Shown here: in pieces, positions 6,432 to 62,591 of the stretch
Position numbering within the stretch: the stretch's first letter is position 1
How the letters are laid out: every line of letters starts with the position of its first letter
Source of the DNA: Nostoc sp. CMAA1605
Lineage (GTDB): Bacteria; Cyanobacteriota; Cyanobacteriia; Cyanobacteriales; Nostocaceae
Direction: 5' to 3'
DNA length: 64,000 nucleotides
Assembly (NCBI RefSeq): GCF_021596505.1
Contig: NZ_PJIZ01000001.1
Coordinates: 1 to 64,000, forward strand
Notes under the pieces: model-generated
What the model was told of the DNA's origin: nothing
Database searches by the model: none
What the model saw: the letters and a program-made list of their open reading frames with translations, nothing else
Made by a program: the position numbers and the translations under genes

Positions 6432-7040
6432 GTGAATCTAGCGGAAGGAGTACAACTTGTTACCTTCGGCATACTGGCCGTAATGATGATTGGAACAGCC
6501 CTTGGTGTGGTGCTAGCATCCAGCATTGTTTATTCTGCCTTTATGTTGGGAGGAGTGTTTATCAGCATCGCGGGTTTGTACCTGTTGTTGAATGGTGATT
6601 TTGTCGCCGCCGCCCAAGTGCTGATTTACGTGGGAGCAGTCAACGTGCTGATTTTGTTTGCCATTATGTTGGTGAACAAACGCCAGAATTTTACTCCCTT
6701 CCCCAGTGCTGGCGTAAGAAAAATTCTGACTGCGATCGTTGCTGTCGGTTTGTTCGCGCTATTAAGCACAATGGTATTAGCTACACCTTGGGCTTACTCC
6801 ACTACTCCAGTAACTGGAGAAAGCACCATTGTGTTGATTGGTGAGCATTTCTTCTCTGACTTTTTATTACCTTTTGAATTGGCTTCGGTATTGCTGTTAA
6901 TGGCAATGGTCGGAGCGATTATTTTGGCGCGTCGTGAGTATTTGCCAGAAGTCACCCCTTCAGAATTGCCTCAAACAGTGTTGACTTTACCAGAACGTCC
7001 CAGAGAACTTGTCGGGGCTGGTAGCGATACTCAAGAATAA
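6432..7040 (+). CDS. ndhG: NAD(P)H-quinone oxidoreductase subunit 6 (NdhG)
   Basis: A 202-residue membrane protein with about five hydrophobic helices, homologous to NuoJ/ND6. The stretch '[23 protein letters not shown]' matches the conserved third helix with its pi-bulge region, and the sequence is rich in Gly/Ala as in the family. It is part of the membrane arm of NDH-1. The start is GTG at 6432, right after the heptamer repeat (sequence [10 protein letters not shown]). It is followed after 37 bases by ndhE. Confidence 0.95.
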
Positions 7041-7077
7041 ATACAAGCCAGATTGTTCAAAAGGGATACGAGAACCG

Positions 7078-7383
7078 ATGCAACTCCAATATTTTTTGTT
7101 ACTTGCAGCCGCTTTATTCTGCATTGGCATTTATGGCTTAATTACCAGCCGTAACGCCGTCAGAGTATTAATGTCTATCGAATTACTGCTGAATGCTGTT
7201 AATTTGAATTTAATGGCATTTTCCAACTTTCTTGACTCAACATTAATTAAGGGTCAAGTATTCACAGTGTTTGTGATTACTGTGGCCGCTGCTGAAGCGG
7301 CGGTAGGTTTAGCGATCGTGCTTGCCATTTATCGTAACCGTGATACCGTCGATATGGAGCAGTTTAATCTCCTGAAGTGGTAA
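7078..7383 (+). CDS. ndhE: NAD(P)H-quinone oxidoreductase subunit 4L (NdhE)
   Basis: A 101-residue protein with three membrane helices, homologous to NuoK/ND4L. It shows the conserved '[15 protein letters not shown]' helix with its buried Glu and '[16 protein letters not shown]' with the second membrane Glu, both proposed proton-path residues. The ATG at 7078 ([10 protein letters not shown]) is preferred to a TTG at 7009 that would overlap ndhG in another frame. The stop codon directly abuts the NAD kinase gene, suggesting co-transcription. Confidence 0.95.
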
Positions 7384-7389
7384 TTGCGT

Positions 7390-8310
7390 GTGCAACTCAA
7401 GCAGATAATCATTGCTTATAAAGCGCGAGACTCCCAGAGCAAACGCTGGGCAGAAATTTGTGCTAAACAGCTAGAAAGTCGCAATTGTCAGGTCTTAATG
7501 GGGCCAAGCGGGCCAAAAGATAATCCTTATCCGGTATTTTTGGCTTCCGCAGGACAACCAATTGATCTGGCAATTGTCCTCGGTGGTGATGGCACAGTCC
7601 TTACTAGTGCCAGACATTTAGCACCGGCTGGTATCCCAATTTTGGGAGTCAATGTCGGTGGTCATTTAGGGTTTTTAACTGAATCGGTAGAAGAATTTCA
7701 AGATACGGAAGCAGTTTGGGATCGGCTGTTTGAAGACAGGTATGCTATTCAACGGCGGATGATGTTACAAGCCGCAGTGTATGAAGGACATCACACAAAT
7801 TTAGAACCTGTAACGGAACGCTTTTTGGGGTTGAATGAATTTTGTGTCAAACCTGCTTCTGCCGATCGCATGATCACCTCTATCTTAGAAATGGAAATTG
7901 ATGGGGAAGTCGTAGATCAATATGTGGGTGATGGGCTGATTGTTTCGACTCCCACAGGTTCTACAGGTTATACTGTCTCTGCTAATGGGCCAATCATGCA
8001 CGATGGTATGGAAGCAATTACCATCACGCCTATTTGTCCGATGAGTCTTTCTAGTCGTCCTCTGGTTTTACCCGCAGGTTCTGTTGTGAGTATTTGGCCT
8101 TTAGGTGACTATGAGTTGACGACGAAATTATGGATGGATGGAGTCTTAGCAACCTCAATTTGGCCTGGACATCGCGTTGACATCCGTATGGCTGATTGTC
8201 TGGCTAAATTTATTATCCTAAGAGAGAACAACTCTTACTATCAGACGCTACGAGAGAAATTACTCTGGGCAGGTACTAGGGTTCGCTACACTAATAATCA
8301 TCAAAATTGA
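7390..8310 (+). CDS. nadK: NAD kinase
   Basis: A cytoplasmic enzyme that phosphorylates NAD to NADP. The GGDGT ATP/NAD-binding motif (residues 65-69) with its catalytic Asp, 'NVGGHLGFL', 'GDGLIVSTPTGSTGY' and 'SLSSRPLVLP' are all present over 306 residues. The start is uncertain between TTG at 7384, which touches the ndhE stop, and GTG at 7390; the latter gives the family-like MQLKQIIIAYK beginning. Being last in an ndh operon fits a role in pyridine nucleotide supply. Cyanobacteria usually have two NAD kinases, so this is one of probably two copies. Confidence 0.93.
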   Translation: MQLKQIIIAYKARDSQSKRWAEICAKQLESRNCQVLMGPSGPKDNPYPVFLASAGQPIDLAIVLGGDGTVLTSARHLAPAGIPILGVNVGGHLGFLTESVEEFQDTEAVWDRLFEDRYAIQRRMMLQAAVYEGHHTNLEPVTERFLGLNEFCVKPASADRMITSILEMEIDGEVVDQYVGDGLIVSTPTGSTGYTVSANGPIMHDGMEAITITPICPMSLSSRPLVLPAGSVVSIWPLGDYELTTKLWMDGVLATSIWPGHRVDIRMADCLAKFIILRENNSYYQTLREKLLWAGTRVRYTNNHQN

Positions 8311-8392
8311 GGATATCTGCCCAGTAATTTAACTACTAATCTCTGTTTTAATTTATCTTACCCCTAGTCATCAAACTGGGGGTTTTGTGATT

Positions 8393-8521
8393 TAGTCAAT
8401 AGTCAATAGTCAATAGTCATTAGTCATTAGTCATTAGTCATTAGTCATTAGTCATTATTCATTAGTCATTAGTTTTTCCCCCCTTCTACCTTGTCTACCT
8501 TGTCTACCTTGTCTCCCCAAT
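8393..8521 (+). repeat. Tandem heptamers GTCAATA/GTCATTA, then a TACCTTGTC repeat
   Basis: About eleven copies of a 7-base unit (first AGTCAAT, then AGTCATT) run from 8393 to 8472, followed by three copies of TACCTTGTC near 8489-8515. The 415-base spacer 8311-8725 contains this block and no gene; a 63-codon frame at 8607 looks like chance. Confidence 0.85.
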
Positions 8522-8725
8522 CCCTAGTTATGTAAGCTTGATATTAGACCAATTCTGTATCCTATTGCCAGATTTTTTAGGAATTTAAGCTCATAATAAA
8601 CCTACGTTGAATCAAAAATGTCCAACAGGTGGTATGCTACCTGCTACAAATGAAACAAACATATCAAATTCTCTTCAATTTCACTTGTTACCTGTCACCT
8701 GTCACCTTTGTTTTTTAAGAGACAG

Positions 8726-9517
8726 ATGGAAATTTCATACAGATATATCGATTATTCACTTAGCAATCCTTCTGCTTTTAAAGATTTTCCTATCCTAGAA
8801 ACTGATAAGTACATACTGAAAATTGCTTTAACGCCTCACGAATTAGAATCTATTTTTCGTTTGCGATTTGAAGTATTTAATTTAGAGTTAGGTTTAGGTT
8901 TTTCTTGTTCCCAATTAACACAGATGGATGAAGATCAATTTGATAGCATTTGTCATCATTTGATGTTAATTTGTAAAGCCACTGGTAAAACTGTTGGTAC
9001 TTACAGAATGCAAACTTATAAAATGGCATCTCAAGGATTAGGATTTGATGCTGCTGATATTTTTAATCTTCAGACAATTCCTGACAGTGTATTACAAGCA
9101 TCTGTAGAAATTGGACGTGCCTGTATCGCCAAAGAATATCGCAATATCCAGTCGCTTTTATTACTTTGGGAAGGATTAGCTAAATATCTCATTTGGAGTG
9201 GTAGTGAATATTTTTTTGGCTGCTCTTCATTACTTACACAATGCACCTGGGAAGCAGCTTGTGTCTATGATTATTTTCAAAAAAATGATTTGATGCACAA
9301 AACTATTTTAGTTTATCCTCACTCACAATATTGCCTGAATTTACCCCAAATTCATAATCATAGATGCCATGTGGAAATTCCAAAAATTGTCCAGGCTTAT
9401 TTGAGTATTGGTGCTAAAATCTGTAGCCTGCCAGCACTTGACCATAATTTTAAAACTATTGATTTTCTAACTATATCTAGAATCCAAGATTTTACACACT
9501 TGCATTCATTGCCTTAA
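8726..9517 (+). CDS. GNAT-fold acyltransferase of the hemolysin/OlsB-like family
   Basis: The 263-residue protein shows the pattern of acetyltransferase_5/AHL-synthase-like proteins: 'FRLRFEVFNLELG' (about 44-57), an acidic 'DEDQFDSICHHLM' (68-80), 'TVGTYRM' (89-95) and 'VEIGRACIAKEYRN' (127-140), close to the E-x-GR-x-C/S-V motif of ornithine-lipid and related N-acyltransferases. Such proteins move an acyl group from acyl-ACP or acyl-CoA onto an amine. The ATG at 8726 is preferred to the TTG at 8708 because an AAGAGA ribosome site precedes it. The next gene, 57 bases on, is a membrane glycosyltransferase-like protein. The substrate is not predictable from sequence. Confidence 0.72.
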   Translation: MEISYRYIDYSLSNPSAFKDFPILETDKYILKIALTPHELESIFRLRFEVFNLELGLGFSCSQLTQMDEDQFDSICHHLMLICKATGKTVGTYRMQTYKMASQGLGFDAADIFNLQTIPDSVLQASVEIGRACIAKEYRNIQSLLLLWEGLAKYLIWSGSEYFFGCSSLLTQCTWEAACVYDYFQKNDLMHKTILVYPHSQYCLNLPQIHNHRCHVEIPKIVQAYLSIGAKICSLPALDHNFKTIDFLTISRIQDFTHLHSLP

Positions 9518-9573
9518 TATTCACTGTATACTGATACTGTTTGTAGATATGAATATCGAAAACAGTCATAAAA

Positions 9574-11121
9574 ATGTCATCTAAAAAATTAATTAATCGT
9601 TTTACACAGTTATCTTTTGATTCTCCCTGGTTGATTATAATTATTTTTTCTGTGCTGGGTTTAGTAGGAATAATCAACCATGCAATGTGGAGAGATGAAC
9701 TAAATCCTTGGTTAATTGTGAGAGATAGCACATCCTTTGAAGAATTAATTAATAATATTCGCTACGAAGGTCATCCTGCTCTCTGGTACTTTTCTTTGGC
9801 TGTAATCAGGATGATTGCTGATACTCCTGTAATCATGCAGATTTTTCATTTAAGCATCACAATTTTAGCTGTCATACTTTTTTGGTTATACAGTCCTTTT
9901 AATTATCAGCAAAAATTGATTTTTACATTTGGATATTTTCCTTTTTATGAGTATTTGTTAATTTCGAGAAATTATGCGTTCAGTTTGCTGTTTGTTTTCG
10001 CTTTCTGTGCTGTTTTTCCATCCAGAAAGAAGACTTATCTTTATTTAGCAATTTTATTAGGGTTACTGGCTAATAGTAGTGCTTATGCTCTATTAGTTGC
10101 GTTATCATTATCATTAACTTTATTGGTAGAGTTTTGCTTTGATAGAGAACATCGTCAGCAATACATACATCAAAGTCAGAGATATGATTTGTTTTTGAGC
10201 ATTAGCATTATTATAGTTGCTTTTATTTTATCCATTTTAACTATTACTCCGCCATCTGATAGTTATCTTCACGGAGGTTTAGATAATGGATGGTTATTGC
10301 AATTAGACTTTAGGCATTTTTTAAGAAGTATCAGCAGATTATTTGGTACTTATTTTCTGATTGTTCCCCACAAAAGATGGCTGGATTTAATAGTTTGTAG
10401 TTTGATTGTTATATTTATTTGTGTCTTGACTGTAATAAGATTATCGAAAAAACCATTTTCTGTATTTTTATTTATTACGGGTAATTTGATACTGTTAACA
10501 TTTACTTACTTAAGATTTGCTGGACATACTAGACATTTTGGGCATTTCTATTTAGTTTTAATAGCTGCATTATGGCTGGGCAGATATTACCATGAATCTG
10601 ATTTTATTATCAATAAGTTTCGGATTACAGAAAGATTGTTTATGTGGGGTCACAAATGGCAAAATCTCGCCTTAATGCTGATTTTGTATGCCCAACTGCT
10701 AGGAGGAATATACGGTTTTGCTAGAGATATAATTATACCTTTTTCTGCCAGTCGTGAGACTGCAAATTATATCAAAAAAGAGAAATTAAATGATGAATTT
10801 ATTTTTGCTAGTCGGGATGCAAACATGGCTGCATTATCTGGGTATCTTAACCGTAAATTGTATTATCCTGAGTTGCAAGATTTAGGTAGTTACACATTAT
10901 TTAAATCGGGACGTAAACCAGTTGGACAGGGGGAAATATTAGCTCAGATTAATGAGGTATTGAAAAATCCAACTAACAAAAACCGAATTTTATTGGTTTT
11001 AAATAAAAAGCTGACTTTCAACCATGAAAATTTACAGGTTGTTTCTATTAAGAGTTTTGAAAGATCATGGGTGGATAGTGAAAGATATCATCTCTATTGG
11101 GTGTCTGAAGTAAATTATTAA
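9574..11121 (+). CDS. Polytopic membrane protein, GT-C/GT39-like glycosyltransferase candidate
   Basis: The 515-residue protein has around ten hydrophobic segments. Its first extramembrane loop reads 'WRDELNPWLIVRD' (D41, E42) followed by 'EGHPALWYF' (H67, P68), which is the layout of GT-C glycosyltransferases such as the PMT/ArnT group: an acidic pair in loop 1 and an H-P-x-L-x-Y motif. These enzymes move sugars from polyprenyl-phosphate carriers on the outer face of the membrane. The C-terminus is a soluble tail. The AT-rich composition (many TTA and ATT codons) is higher than in neighbours such as the ndh genes. Exact donor and acceptor are unknown. Confidence 0.6.
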   Translation: MSSKKLINRFTQLSFDSPWLIIIIFSVLGLVGIINHAMWRDELNPWLIVRDSTSFEELINNIRYEGHPALWYFSLAVIRMIADTPVIMQIFHLSITILAVILFWLYSPFNYQQKLIFTFGYFPFYEYLLISRNYAFSLLFVFAFCAVFPSRKKTYLYLAILLGLLANSSAYALLVALSLSLTLLVEFCFDREHRQQYIHQSQRYDLFLSISIIIVAFILSILTITPPSDSYLHGGLDNGWLLQLDFRHFLRSISRLFGTYFLIVPHKRWLDLIVCSLIVIFICVLTVIRLSKKPFSVFLFITGNLILLTFTYLRFAGHTRHFGHFYLVLIAALWLGRYYHESDFIINKFRITERLFMWGHKWQNLALMLILYAQLLGGIYGFARDIIIPFSASRETANYIKKEKLNDEFIFASRDANMAALSGYLNRKLYYPELQDLGSYTLFKSGRKPVGQGEILAQINEVLKNPTNKNRILLVLNKKLTFNHENLQVVSIKSFERSWVDSERYHLYWVSEVNY

Positions 11122-59425: not shown

Positions 59426-61675
59426 ATGTCATATAAAGTTACAGGCAAAGTTTATGAGGCGGAAACTGGTTTAGGAATACCTCATCTAATTATTCAAGCT
59501 TTCGATAAGGACTTACTGAAGAATGATAGTTTAGGGGAAACAATAACAGATAGCCAAGGCAAATTTGAAATCAATTATACCGAAAAAGACTTCAAAGAAT
59601 TATTTGAAGGTGAACCAGATGTATATCTTGTGATCAAGACAGGCGATCGCATCAATACTTTATATAACGGAGAAAAGAATATTCGTCATGGAGCCAAGCG
59701 ACATGAATACTTTGAAGTAGGGATTCCTAAATCAGCTTTGGTTAACCAAAGCAAAGATGATCAACAACTGTTAAAAGTTCTTTTTGGTGTTGCTTGGTTA
59801 GATGGAGTTCTCGAACCAGGAGAAAAACTATATCTACAGCAAGTAGCACATCAAAAAAGACTGGCAGATGATCCAGAAATCCAAACTTTATTAGCTGGAA
59901 AACCAGTCGAGCCTCAAGAAGCTTACACCTATTTACAAGCATATTTAGGGACTAATCCTAGTGATGAAGATTATGATGAACTCTGTCAATCACTAGAAAC
60001 ACTAGTCGCTCTTGATTCTATAGTCGAAGGTATTGAAACAGAATTTTTAGCAAGCATACCCAAAAAAGCAGCTCGTCAAGTCGCTCTCAAGCAACGCCTA
60101 GCAGGTGCTTTTCTCGACTCTCAATTTATGGCGAAGGTGGCTAAACCACAACTTAAAACTAGCCAATCAATACAGAAAAAAGGCTTTTTAGCAGAAATAC
60201 CTTTCAACGTCATCAATAAGTTAGTTGACACAATTGAACCTCCAGAAATGAGAGGATTACAAACTACTTTATCTAGGTCATTTTTACAAGATAACTTTGC
60301 TCCAGTCCACGAGGAAATTACCGCCGATAATTTACCAGTAATTGGTCAAATTCCCCAAGAATTATCAGGTCTATTTTTACGTATTTCGCCTAATCCTCAA
60401 TTTTTCCCCGTGGGGCTGTATCACTGGTTTGATGGCGATGGGATGTTACATGGGGTAAATATCAAAAATGGTCAAGCTAGTTATCGTAATCGCTATGTTC
60501 AGACTGAGACGCTGAAAATTGAAAAAAAAGAAGGGAAAGCAATCTGGCCAGGTTTACTGAATATCCCCAGGTTTGACTCTCCCTATGGAATTATGATGAA
60601 AAATTCTGCCAATACATCTGTAATTTGGCACGCTGGGAAACTATTAACCTTGTTTGAAGCAGGATTACCCCATCAGATTCGAGTTCCAGATTTAGAAACC
60701 GTTGGTACTTACACTTTCAAAGATAAACTCACCTGTTCTTTTACAGCGCATCCTAAAGTAGATCCCGTCACGGGAGAAATGATATTTTTCGGCTGTTCTT
60801 ACATAACTCCGCCTTACCTCTACTACGGTGTAGTCACAGCAGAAGGTGAAATTAATCGCATTGAGGCGATAGATTTACCAAATCCCATCATGATGCACGA
60901 CTTTGCCATCACTGAAAATTACTCAGTATTCCTAGATTTACCCTTCCTCTTCCAAATCGGAAAAGTGATGAAAGGCGAAATTCCTCTACATTTTGATAGG
61001 AACAAAAAAAGTCGTATCGGTATTATTCCACGTCATGGTAACAACAAATCTATACGCTGGTTTGAGATCCCAACTTGTATGGTTTATCATACCGCAAATG
61101 CTTACGAAGAAGGGGACGATATAGTTCTGTTAGGTCTGCGGATGCCTTCCACTAATCTGTTAATCCCTAGTGATTCTACAGAAATGGGACAGAGTTCTGA
61201 TTGTGAGATAGCAAAAATGTGTCGTTGGCGGATTAACCTCACAACAGGAGCTGTCACCGAAAAATTACTTGATGATCAAATTACGGAATTTCCCCGCATC
61301 AATGATAATTTCATAGGGCGCAAAATGCGTTATATTTATGCCGGACAAGCTGCAATTTATGCTGGTAGACCCCTGTTTGATTGTGTGAGAAAATATGATT
61401 TAGAAAAAGAGACAGCTGAAAGCTATTTCTTTGGCAGAGGGCGTTTTGGCGGTGAGTGTGTATTTGCGCCTCGTCCTGGAGCGACTGTTGAAGATGATGG
61501 TTGGGTGATTACCTATATTCACGATACGATTACCAACAAGTCAGAATTGCTAATTCTCAATGCACAAAATATCACCTCCGAGCCTGTAGCACGGGTTATG
61601 CTCCCTCAGCGTGTACCCTATGGTTTCCACTGTGGCTGGGTTTCTGAGGAACAAATGGCAAGTCAGAAAATTTGA
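59426..61675 (+). CDS. Carotenoid cleavage oxygenase with N-terminal beta-sandwich and TerB-like domains
   Basis: The 749-residue protein is a three-part fusion. Residues 1-100 ('YKVTGKVYEAETGLGIPHL', 'TDSQGKFEI', 'VYLVIKTGDR') look like a transthyretin/carboxypeptidase-regulatory beta-sandwich. Residues about 112-215 ('LLKVLFGVAWLDGVLEPGEKLYLQQVA') look like a TerB-type helical domain with its acidic site. Residues about 285-749 are a carotenoid oxygenase beta-propeller, with all four iron-binding His present: H442, H491, H555 and H735. Cleavage oxygenases cut carotenoids to apocarotenals and retinal. The next gene is crtW, a carotenoid ketolase. The order of domains is unusual; ordinary enzymes are about 480-500 residues. 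Confidence 0.88.
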   Translation: MSYKVTGKVYEAETGLGIPHLIIQAFDKDLLKNDSLGETITDSQGKFEINYTEKDFKELFEGEPDVYLVIKTGDRINTLYNGEKNIRHGAKRHEYFEVGIPKSALVNQSKDDQQLLKVLFGVAWLDGVLEPGEKLYLQQVAHQKRLADDPEIQTLLAGKPVEPQEAYTYLQAYLGTNPSDEDYDELCQSLETLVALDSIVEGIETEFLASIPKKAARQVALKQRLAGAFLDSQFMAKVAKPQLKTSQSIQKKGFLAEIPFNVINKLVDTIEPPEMRGLQTTLSRSFLQDNFAPVHEEITADNLPVIGQIPQELSGLFLRISPNPQFFPVGLYHWFDGDGMLHGVNIKNGQASYRNRYVQTETLKIEKKEGKAIWPGLLNIPRFDSPYGIMMKNSANTSVIWHAGKLLTLFEAGLPHQIRVPDLETVGTYTFKDKLTCSFTAHPKVDPVTGEMIFFGCSYITPPYLYYGVVTAEGEINRIEAIDLPNPIMMHDFAITENYSVFLDLPFLFQIGKVMKGEIPLHFDRNKKSRIGIIPRHGNNKSIRWFEIPTCMVYHTANAYEEGDDIVLLGLRMPSTNLLIPSDSTEMGQSSDCEIAKMCRWRINLTTGAVTEKLLDDQITEFPRINDNFIGRKMRYIYAGQAAIYAGRPLFDCVRKYDLEKETAESYFFGRGRFGGECVFAPRPGATVEDDGWVITYIHDTITNKSELLILNAQNITSEPVARVMLPQRVPYGFHCGWVSEEQMASQKI

Positions 61676-61859
61676 TGTAACTTAGAGGATGTTCCATCTC
61701 ATCACCTGCTTTCTACACCTGTAAAAGAGGGAGAAAGCAGGTGAATTCGATAAACAGATTTTATTTACTAAATTGCTATGAGTCTCCCATTGTTTTCTGT
61801 ACTCAGTATTAGACCTGAATCTTGACATTAAGTTTAATAGAATATCTCCACTAACAAGA

Positions 61860-62591
61860 ATGACAAACTTTGATATAAATAGCAGAATAACAAATACTAG
61901 TAACGGAATTTTTATTGCTTGCCTTATTTTAGGATTGTGGTCAACAAGCCTAATTATATTATTGTCTTTAGATATTGCTAAAACTCAAATTATATTCATC
62001 GCTTTAGCCGTAGTTTGGCAGACATTTTTATATACAGGATTATTTATTACTGCCCATGATGCCATGCACGGTGTAGTTTTTCCTCAAAATCCCAAAGTCA
62101 ACAATTGGATAGGTAGAATATGCGTGCTATTTTACGCTCTATTTTCTTATCAAGAGCTATTAAGAAAACATGGCTTACATCACCGCTATTCTAGCACCGA
62201 AGATGATCCTGATTTTTATGAAAATCAATATCAAAACTTTTTTGCTTGGTATTTTAACTTTGTAAAATCTTACTGGAGTTGGCAACAACATCTGGGATTG
62301 ATATGTGCATATATTGTTCCTAGATATGTTTTTCATATATCTGATGCTAATTTAATTGTATTTTGGGTAATACCATCTATTTTTAGTTCAATACAATTAT
62401 TTTATTTCGGCACATTTCTACCCCACAGAAGGCTTGAGGAAGGATATACCAGTGTACATCAGACAAGAAGTATCCCATTACCTACTTTTTGGTCATTTAT
62501 AGCTTGTTACCATTTTGGCTATCACAAAGAACATCATGAACATCCGAATGTTCCTTGGTGGAGATTACCGGATGTTTACAAAGGGAACTAG
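61860..62591 (+). CDS. crtW: Beta-carotene ketolase CrtW
   Basis: A 243-residue membrane di-iron enzyme of the fatty-acid hydroxylase/desaturase type. His boxes: H66-DAM-H70, H104-GL-H107-H108, and H222-KE-H225-H226 with H228. The C-terminal 'YHKEHHEHPNVPWWRLPDVY' is a CrtW signature. The enzyme introduces a keto group at C4/C4' of beta-ionone rings (beta-carotene to echinenone and canthaxanthin). Ketocarotenoids are used by orange carotenoid protein and in the cell envelope of Nostoc-type cyanobacteria. It lies 184 bases after the carotenoid oxygenase, on the same strand. Confidence 0.93.
   Translation: MTNFDINSRITNTSNGIFIACLILGLWSTSLIILLSLDIAKTQIIFIALAVVWQTFLYTGLFITAHDAMHGVVFPQNPKVNNWIGRICVLFYALFSYQELLRKHGLHHRYSSTEDDPDFYENQYQNFFAWYFNFVKSYWSWQQHLGLICAYIVPRYVFHISDANLIVFWVIPSIFSSIQLFYFGTFLPHRRLEEGYTSVHQTRSIPLPTFWSFIACYHFGYHKEHHEHPNVPWWRLPDVYKGN

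Follow-up and report, generated by a model that had tools for sequence, protein, structure and literature searches.

The gene analysed here encodes a real and conserved variant of the carotenoid oxygenase family, in which a transthyretin-like (TTR-like) beta-sandwich and a TerB-like helical domain, together the front end, precede a carotenoid cleavage oxygenase (CCO) domain. It lies in a stretch of 64,000 nucleotides of DNA from Nostoc sp. CMAA1605 (contig NZ_PJIZ01000001.1, positions 1 to 64,000), hereafter called the window. On the evidence presented below we consider it somewhat probable that the encoded enzyme is a CCD1/NosCCD-type cleaver of the C9-C10 bond of carotenoids, whose front end docks to a membrane or a partner and tunes the access of keto- and hydroxy-carotenoids. 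To our knowledge, it is not settled how carotenoid oxygenases reach their water-insoluble substrates within membranes. In this family the front end can be removed, and natural relatives lack it, so that the question can be addressed directly through domain deletion and domain swap. The domain that the family has in common with lipoxygenases, among them one of solved structure, provides a concrete structural hypothesis.

The gene is a single uninterrupted open reading frame of 749 codons (749 amino acids), which starts with ATG and has the motif AAGGAA shortly before it (Table 1). Hereby, the Pfam family RPE65 (PF03055) matches residues 291-740 with an E-value of 4.3e-147 and 491 bits versus a cut-off of 27, the profile being matched across positions 1-469 of 469. 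The iron-ligating residues H442, H491, H555 and H735 are all present and are invariant in an alignment of 28 rows, 25 of which are single-domain relatives. By analogy with ACO-type enzymes, we take E411, E561 and E621 to be the second-shell glutamates. The neighbouring gene is identified as crtW by an NCBIfam equivalog (395.6 bits versus a cut-off of 350). The original prediction, made from the window alone, of an oxygenase fused behind two extra domains, with four intact iron-binding histidines and crtW next door, is borne out. Two further carotenoid oxygenases are encoded in the same genome (frames of 528 and 472 residues, 27-28% identical), both without the TTR-TerB front end.

Table 1. Features of the fused gene and its downstream neighbourhood; positions refer to the window.
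Feature	Positions	Strand	Basis
TTR-TerB-carotenoid oxygenase fusion gene	59426..61675	+	ORF list, Pfam, 749 aa
Transthyretin-like (TTR-52/CarboxypepD_reg-like) beta-sandwich, residues 1-103	59426..59734	+	
TerB-like helical domain, residues ~108-240	59747..60145	+	Pfam in homologues, helices in model
Linker with amphipathic segment, residues 253-278	60182..60259	+	
Carotenoid cleavage oxygenase domain, residues 285-749	60278..61672	+	Pfam, alignment, structure comparison
Stem-loop between fusion gene and crtW	61703..61743	+	z -4.3
crtW, beta-carotene ketolase	61860..62591	+	NCBIfam equivalog

Assignment of the catalytic domain to the carotenoid cleavage oxygenase class is strongly supported. 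The full-length AlphaFold2 model (28 alignment rows, just three of them spanning the front end; mean pLDDT 79.7) fits the seven-bladed propeller fold, with VP14 as the top match in the structural comparison (Z 47.1, rmsd 2.1, 466 aligned residues, 35% identity). The best PDB chain by sequence is a carotenoid 9,10-dioxygenase (Osmanthus CCD1 entries, E 4e-115), and Osmanthus CCD1 likewise shows the highest identity in the structural comparison (42% over 467 residues, Z 44.2), with bacterial, fungal and ACO rows at 25-31%. As judged by sequence, the oxygenase domain is nearest to CCD1. With its four histidines it is probably of the same kind as plant CCD1 and as NosCCD/NSC1 (all1106) of Nostoc sp. 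PCC 7120; the latter, according to the available text of PMC5133782, cleaves at C9-C10 and takes echinenone as well as 4-ketomyxol fucoside as substrates. Because the nearest solved chains are 9,10-dioxygenases and NosCCD cleaves C9-C10, we infer that the fused enzyme would cleave beta-ring, keto and hydroxy carotenoids at this bond. Two observations count against the C9-C10 reading: lignostilbene dioxygenases reach Z 44-45 in the structural comparison, level with CCD1, and the best NCBIfam model is that of a 13,14-cleaving 8'-apo-carotenoid dioxygenase (NF052295), which at 355.3 bits is far under its cut-off of 675. In a tree built without all1106, the fused oxygenase domains group beside cyanobacterial single-domain CCOs of similar length. 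In contrast to the fused enzymes, which fall together on the tree, the single-domain loci carry neither a TTR-like nor a TerB-like front end; NosCCD is likened to them by description.

For the front end, the original naming as a beta-sandwich followed by a TerB-like domain proved correct in outline. The window's front part matches Pfam TTR-52 (PF01060) with an E-value of 0.0035, or 0.0005 when residues 1-103 are scanned alone, and scores 21.0 bits versus a curated cut-off of 24.9; among 18 homologous domains, 17 match at E <= 0.1, the best of them at 4.4e-6. In the AlphaFold2 model residues 1-103 form strands, with block pLDDT values of 35-77 that denote low to moderate confidence. When five fused front ends were combined into a profile, its best PDB match was the N-terminal beta domain of the lipoxygenase CspLOX1 (5ek8, E 0.0027), the next PDB matches being unrelated kinases with E-values of 0.3 or worse. 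A wider TTR profile matched 5ek8 with an E-value of 1.5e-10; this value is partly circular, since the profile includes one lipoxygenase domain, and the profile is noisy in that it also matched designed TIM barrels (E 1e-7 to 1e-4). For seven preselected lipoxygenase ORFs, in all of which Pfam confirmed a lipoxygenase, E-values calculated for a database as large as the PDB copy were 3e-10 to 2e-5 with a lipoxygenase-free profile and 2e-5 to 0.025 with a profile built from fused genes only. Across the phylum, a TTR-like domain was found in 19 of 386 genomes, on the oxygenase in four, on lipoxygenases in seven and elsewhere in eight; one of the last lies in a Tc-toxin-like protein and the others have no Pfam-named partner. 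The TTR-like domain is thus common to the fused oxygenases and to cyanobacterial lipoxygenases including CspLOX1. Fold searches with the low-confidence model of the front end alone gave no convincing match: the best VIA matches (Z 5.8) were to receptor and Ig-like sandwiches, and in Foldseek CspLOX1 ranked third (E 0.058), which proves nothing by itself. No TerB entry was among the best 50 matches listed in either search, which is not evidence of absence. Modelled alone from three rows, the front end reached a pLDDT of 53, which together with the fold searches counts against the best explanation.

Two proteins from other cyanobacterial loci also hold the TTR-like domain. One is a 2109-residue protein with Tc-toxin-like domains in genome G133 (L125:5571-11897), the other an 853-residue frame in G451 (L207:4248-6806), which is headed by a TTR-like domain 42% identical to that of the window and in which no Pfam family was found at E <= 0.001.

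The TerB-like part of the window was matched by Pfam TerB (PF05099) with an E-value of 0.044 (16.3 bits versus a curated cut-off of 24.4), whereas in 20 of 21 homologues the match reaches E <= 0.1, with a best value of 5.4e-10. The domain carries the motif W-x-D-G-x-x-E-P-x-E. Residues 112-238 are helical in the model, the pLDDT of ten-residue blocks being 67-89 for residues 111-200 and 57-68 for residues 201-240, and the best PDB profile match is the TerB-like entry 2ou3, which is weak (E 0.066). Behind this domain, the linker (residues 253-278) is amphipathic at about residues 253-272, and all 32 of 32 rows have its P259. It recalls the hydrophobic patch formed by helices of VP14 that, in the part of PMC5133782 available, is described as presumably facing the membrane. 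Free-standing TerB-like homologues are widespread in the window's family. Reading the function of the domain from the neighbours of these genes proved uninformative, as 24 of 30 free-standing loci (L009-L033, L182-L185, L208) stand beside a gene for an rRNA methyltransferase that we presume to be rsmB-like. The original suggestion that such domains sense metals or interact with membranes found no support among the literature matches listed, and metal sensing by TerB was rejected on this basis. On the Nostoc plasmid NZ_CP151102.1 (L230, locus 6557-10265), the fused gene has upstream of it another gene that is annotated as TerB; when the TerB part of the fusion served as BLAST query, no match was listed at the corresponding place in L204.

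The fused architecture is patchily distributed. Of 386 genomes drawn from the whole phylum, four have a full front end; of 388 drawn from the whole order, 11 do, and six of these 11 belong to four other families. Within the window's own family, near-full front-end matches were obtained in 22 of 217 genomes, which shows that the arrangement is no product of chance, and some front-end match in 207, most of the listed ones covering the TerB-like part alone. In genome_contigs, 577 stretches encode a relative, and two of the best 80 of these have the full front end. Altogether, 28 uninterrupted TTR-TerB-CCO genes were found. They are spread over 27 genomes, which represent five families within a single cyanobacterial order, and genome G557 holds two fused copies. 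The 32 fused loci referred to below include the partial or broken L187, L203, L206 and L247 and exclude the remnant L117; L188 and L201 duplicate the contigs L034 and L035, and each contig enters the count once. Hereby, L206 and L247 encode a TerB-CCO protein without the TTR part, which can therefore be lost or absent. Broken copies, located in G469 and G558, are L187 with an in-frame stop and L203, which is spread over three frames. A remnant in G382 (L117:6172-6998) consists of the TerB part and the last 94 oxygenase residues, the remainder being missing.

Carotenoid genes accompany some of these loci. Among 25 fused loci, crtW is near five, codirectional with the fused gene in G340 and the window genome and convergent in G555, G550 and G522, crtR is near two, and another carotenoid oxygenase is near three (one a fragment, two in one genome). 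Equivalog names were assigned to the neighbours at L189, L192 and L194. Together, crtW, crtR or another CCO is found at 10 of the 25 loci and at none of seven further ones, that is at 10 of 32, versus none of 77 single-domain control loci; in this count the loci are related and not independent events, and the neighbour queries, being taken from the window genome and from fused loci, make finds there more likely. Moreover, 13 of the control loci measure no more than 8 kb, and 13 have titles not naming a cyanobacterium. L084 was excluded from the count, and L035, which lies on a 3-kb contig, could show no neighbour. In the window genome, which is 94% complete, the adjacent crtW is the only one found above the cut-off, and the same holds for G340; a second crtW is present in G555, G550 and G522. 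As the adjacency of crtW is restricted to two sister subclades of differing orientation and to five of 32 loci, a conserved crtW operon can be rejected as a general rule. In the gap of 184 bp between the fused gene and crtW lies a strong stem-loop, each arm of which spans at least 11 bp, and it recurs in G340 with changed letters (z about -4 in both); the feature was not among the predictions of a terminator scan and may be a terminator, an attenuator or a repeat. The restricted adjacency of crtW, this stem-loop, which bears on whether the two genes are co-transcribed, and the 22 of 32 fused loci without any queried carotenoid neighbour count against the best explanation, as do the two genes lacking the TTR part and the member L241 described below.

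With regard to function, both the bond cleaved and a role of the front end in docking appear plausible, and the activity, the substrates and the contribution of each front domain are predicted from the comparisons above. The Fe(II) beta-propeller would cleave carotenoids most likely at C9=C10 (and C9'=C10'), yielding ionone-type volatiles and C14 dialdehydes, and ketolated or hydroxylated carotenoids provided by CrtW and CrtR would be likely substrates. The TTR-like sandwich may pack against or support the catalytic domain, while the TerB-like helices and the amphipathic linker may hold the enzyme at a carotenoid-bearing membrane or at a protein partner. This division of labour is suggested by analogy to CspLOX1 and other cyanobacterial lipoxygenases, in which a related TTR-like domain likewise stands ahead of a lipid dioxygenase, albeit one whose catalytic domain comes from a different family. 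In the available text of PMC10889196, the beta domain of CspLOX1 matters for catalysis and removal of its N-terminal helix impairs the interaction with membranes. The analogy is imperfect: the same text reports the sandwich of CspLOX1 as not important for membrane binding, and the helical extension of CspLOX1 precedes the sandwich, whereas the helical TerB-like part of the fusion comes after it.

The front end could alternatively act as a protein-protein adaptor to a soluble carotenoid carrier of the OCP/HCP type or to CrtW/CrtR, with no direct role at the membrane, a reading that we judge rather unlikely but the best of those competing with membrane or partner docking. It would agree with the small free-standing TerB-like proteins of many genomes, with the CrtW and CrtR neighbours of some, and with the description of NosCCD as soluble in the part of PMC5133782 available. 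However, the free-standing TerB-like genes adjoin the rsmB-like gene and not carotenoid genes, and the partners named are candidates.

Somewhat less likely still, the front end might be a Ca2+- or metal-dependent switch, in which cations bound by D27, D29, D34 and D65 together with the D-G-x-x-E of the TerB part would gate activity or docking at the membrane, as in a C2 domain. The Asp cluster D27-x-D29...D34...D65 is indeed kept in 28 of 28 TTR-bearing fused genes, D27, D29 and D65 are present in 18 of 18 rows of a wider set, and a profile search weakly matched ferlins, at E 0.004 and 0.04, as well as TTR-52 itself at E 0.06. The same profile, however, matched designed TIM barrels at lower E-values, which is necessarily chance, and the model of the TTR part is of low confidence.

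To follow the origin of the fusion, a tree of 114 oxygenase domains was calculated, from which 20 rows of distant CCO types were omitted. A single label change accounts for the 31 fused rows in this tree, and the branch that separates exactly these rows has a support of 53. The low value is probably due to L084, whose ORF is cut by the end of its contig: in a first tree, from which matches under 380 residues and identical sequences were omitted, L084 fell among the fused rows, and the group including it has an SH-aLRT of 99. Both trees are quick ones, and they are most simply read as one ancient fusion event followed by losses. All three parts are under purifying selection, the front end being generally less constrained; in a simple Nei-Gojobori count over 11 gene pairs, the TTR part had dN/dS values of 0.02-0.48, the TerB part of 0.06-0.36 and the CCO part of 0.05-0.16. 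Model, selection and conservation rule out that the front end is an unstructured leader, the helical model of the TerB-like part and the dN/dS well below 1 in both domains arguing directly against common leaders of this kind. That the fusion is nearly neutral, with a front end gained in one event and retained although it serves no particular purpose, is very unlikely given these dN/dS values and a domain order kept in 28 genes of five families, even though the patchy distribution, the two genes without a TTR part, the G382 remnant and the broken copies in G469 and G558 would agree with it. That the fusion took the place of a single-domain NosCCD-like gene was rejected as a general rule, as G278 holds both; in G000, G340 and G101, the search found no further CCO with an identity above 35%.

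All four histidines are present in 30 of the 32 fused rows. The exceptions are L203, whose frame is truncated, and L241 of G655 (L241:5274-7616), which encodes a full-length TTR-TerB-CCO protein with Arg and Pro at two of the four iron-His positions and, judging from these replacements, is probably a non-cleaving member. Ten genomes of the family of G655 were searched and held no other fused gene, hence no further case of lost histidines. A comparable protein may be WP_016873878.1 of Chlorogloeopsis fritschii, described in the accessible part of PMC7029182 as a "much longer RPE65" that has two of the four His; the two proteins, both long CCOs with two lost histidines, are likened by description, as a lead only. 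On a broader and more speculative view, to which we assign a low probability, a portable cyanobacterial TTR-like domain would have been joined separately to lipoxygenases and to carotenoid oxygenases for work on membrane-embedded polyenes; with the TerB-like domain it would form a cation-responsive switch that links ketocarotenoid synthesis by CrtW to the release of apocarotenoids, and the module of L241 would carry a non-cleaving carotenoid binder.

The domain order had been put forward as new. Searches of the open-access literature found no description of the TTR-TerB-CCO architecture, no paper combining "carotenoid oxygenase" with "TerB" and none naming "Ava_2047", and in this respect the novelty stands, as the architecture is not already well described there. 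It does not stand in the sense of a singular case, since the order recurs in 28 genes and a protein of fitting length was tabulated in 2012: Table 2 of that survey (PMC3299332) lists gene 2047 of Anabaena variabilis ATCC 29413 as a CCD1 of 765 amino acids, the other entries having 459-515, and the available text makes no comment on its length. Ava_2047 agrees with the fused family in length and in CCD1 type and is probably a member, although the likeness is one of description in the part of the survey available. An earlier count has thus probably included the family, though its architecture is apparently undescribed. On a plasmid of Nostoc sp. UHCC 0302, the fused gene is annotated as "carotenoid oxygenase family protein". 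Tandem carotenoid oxygenase genes with the fused one last occur at two loci, three genes at L202:2084-7534 (G477) and two at L205:3039-7029 (G557).
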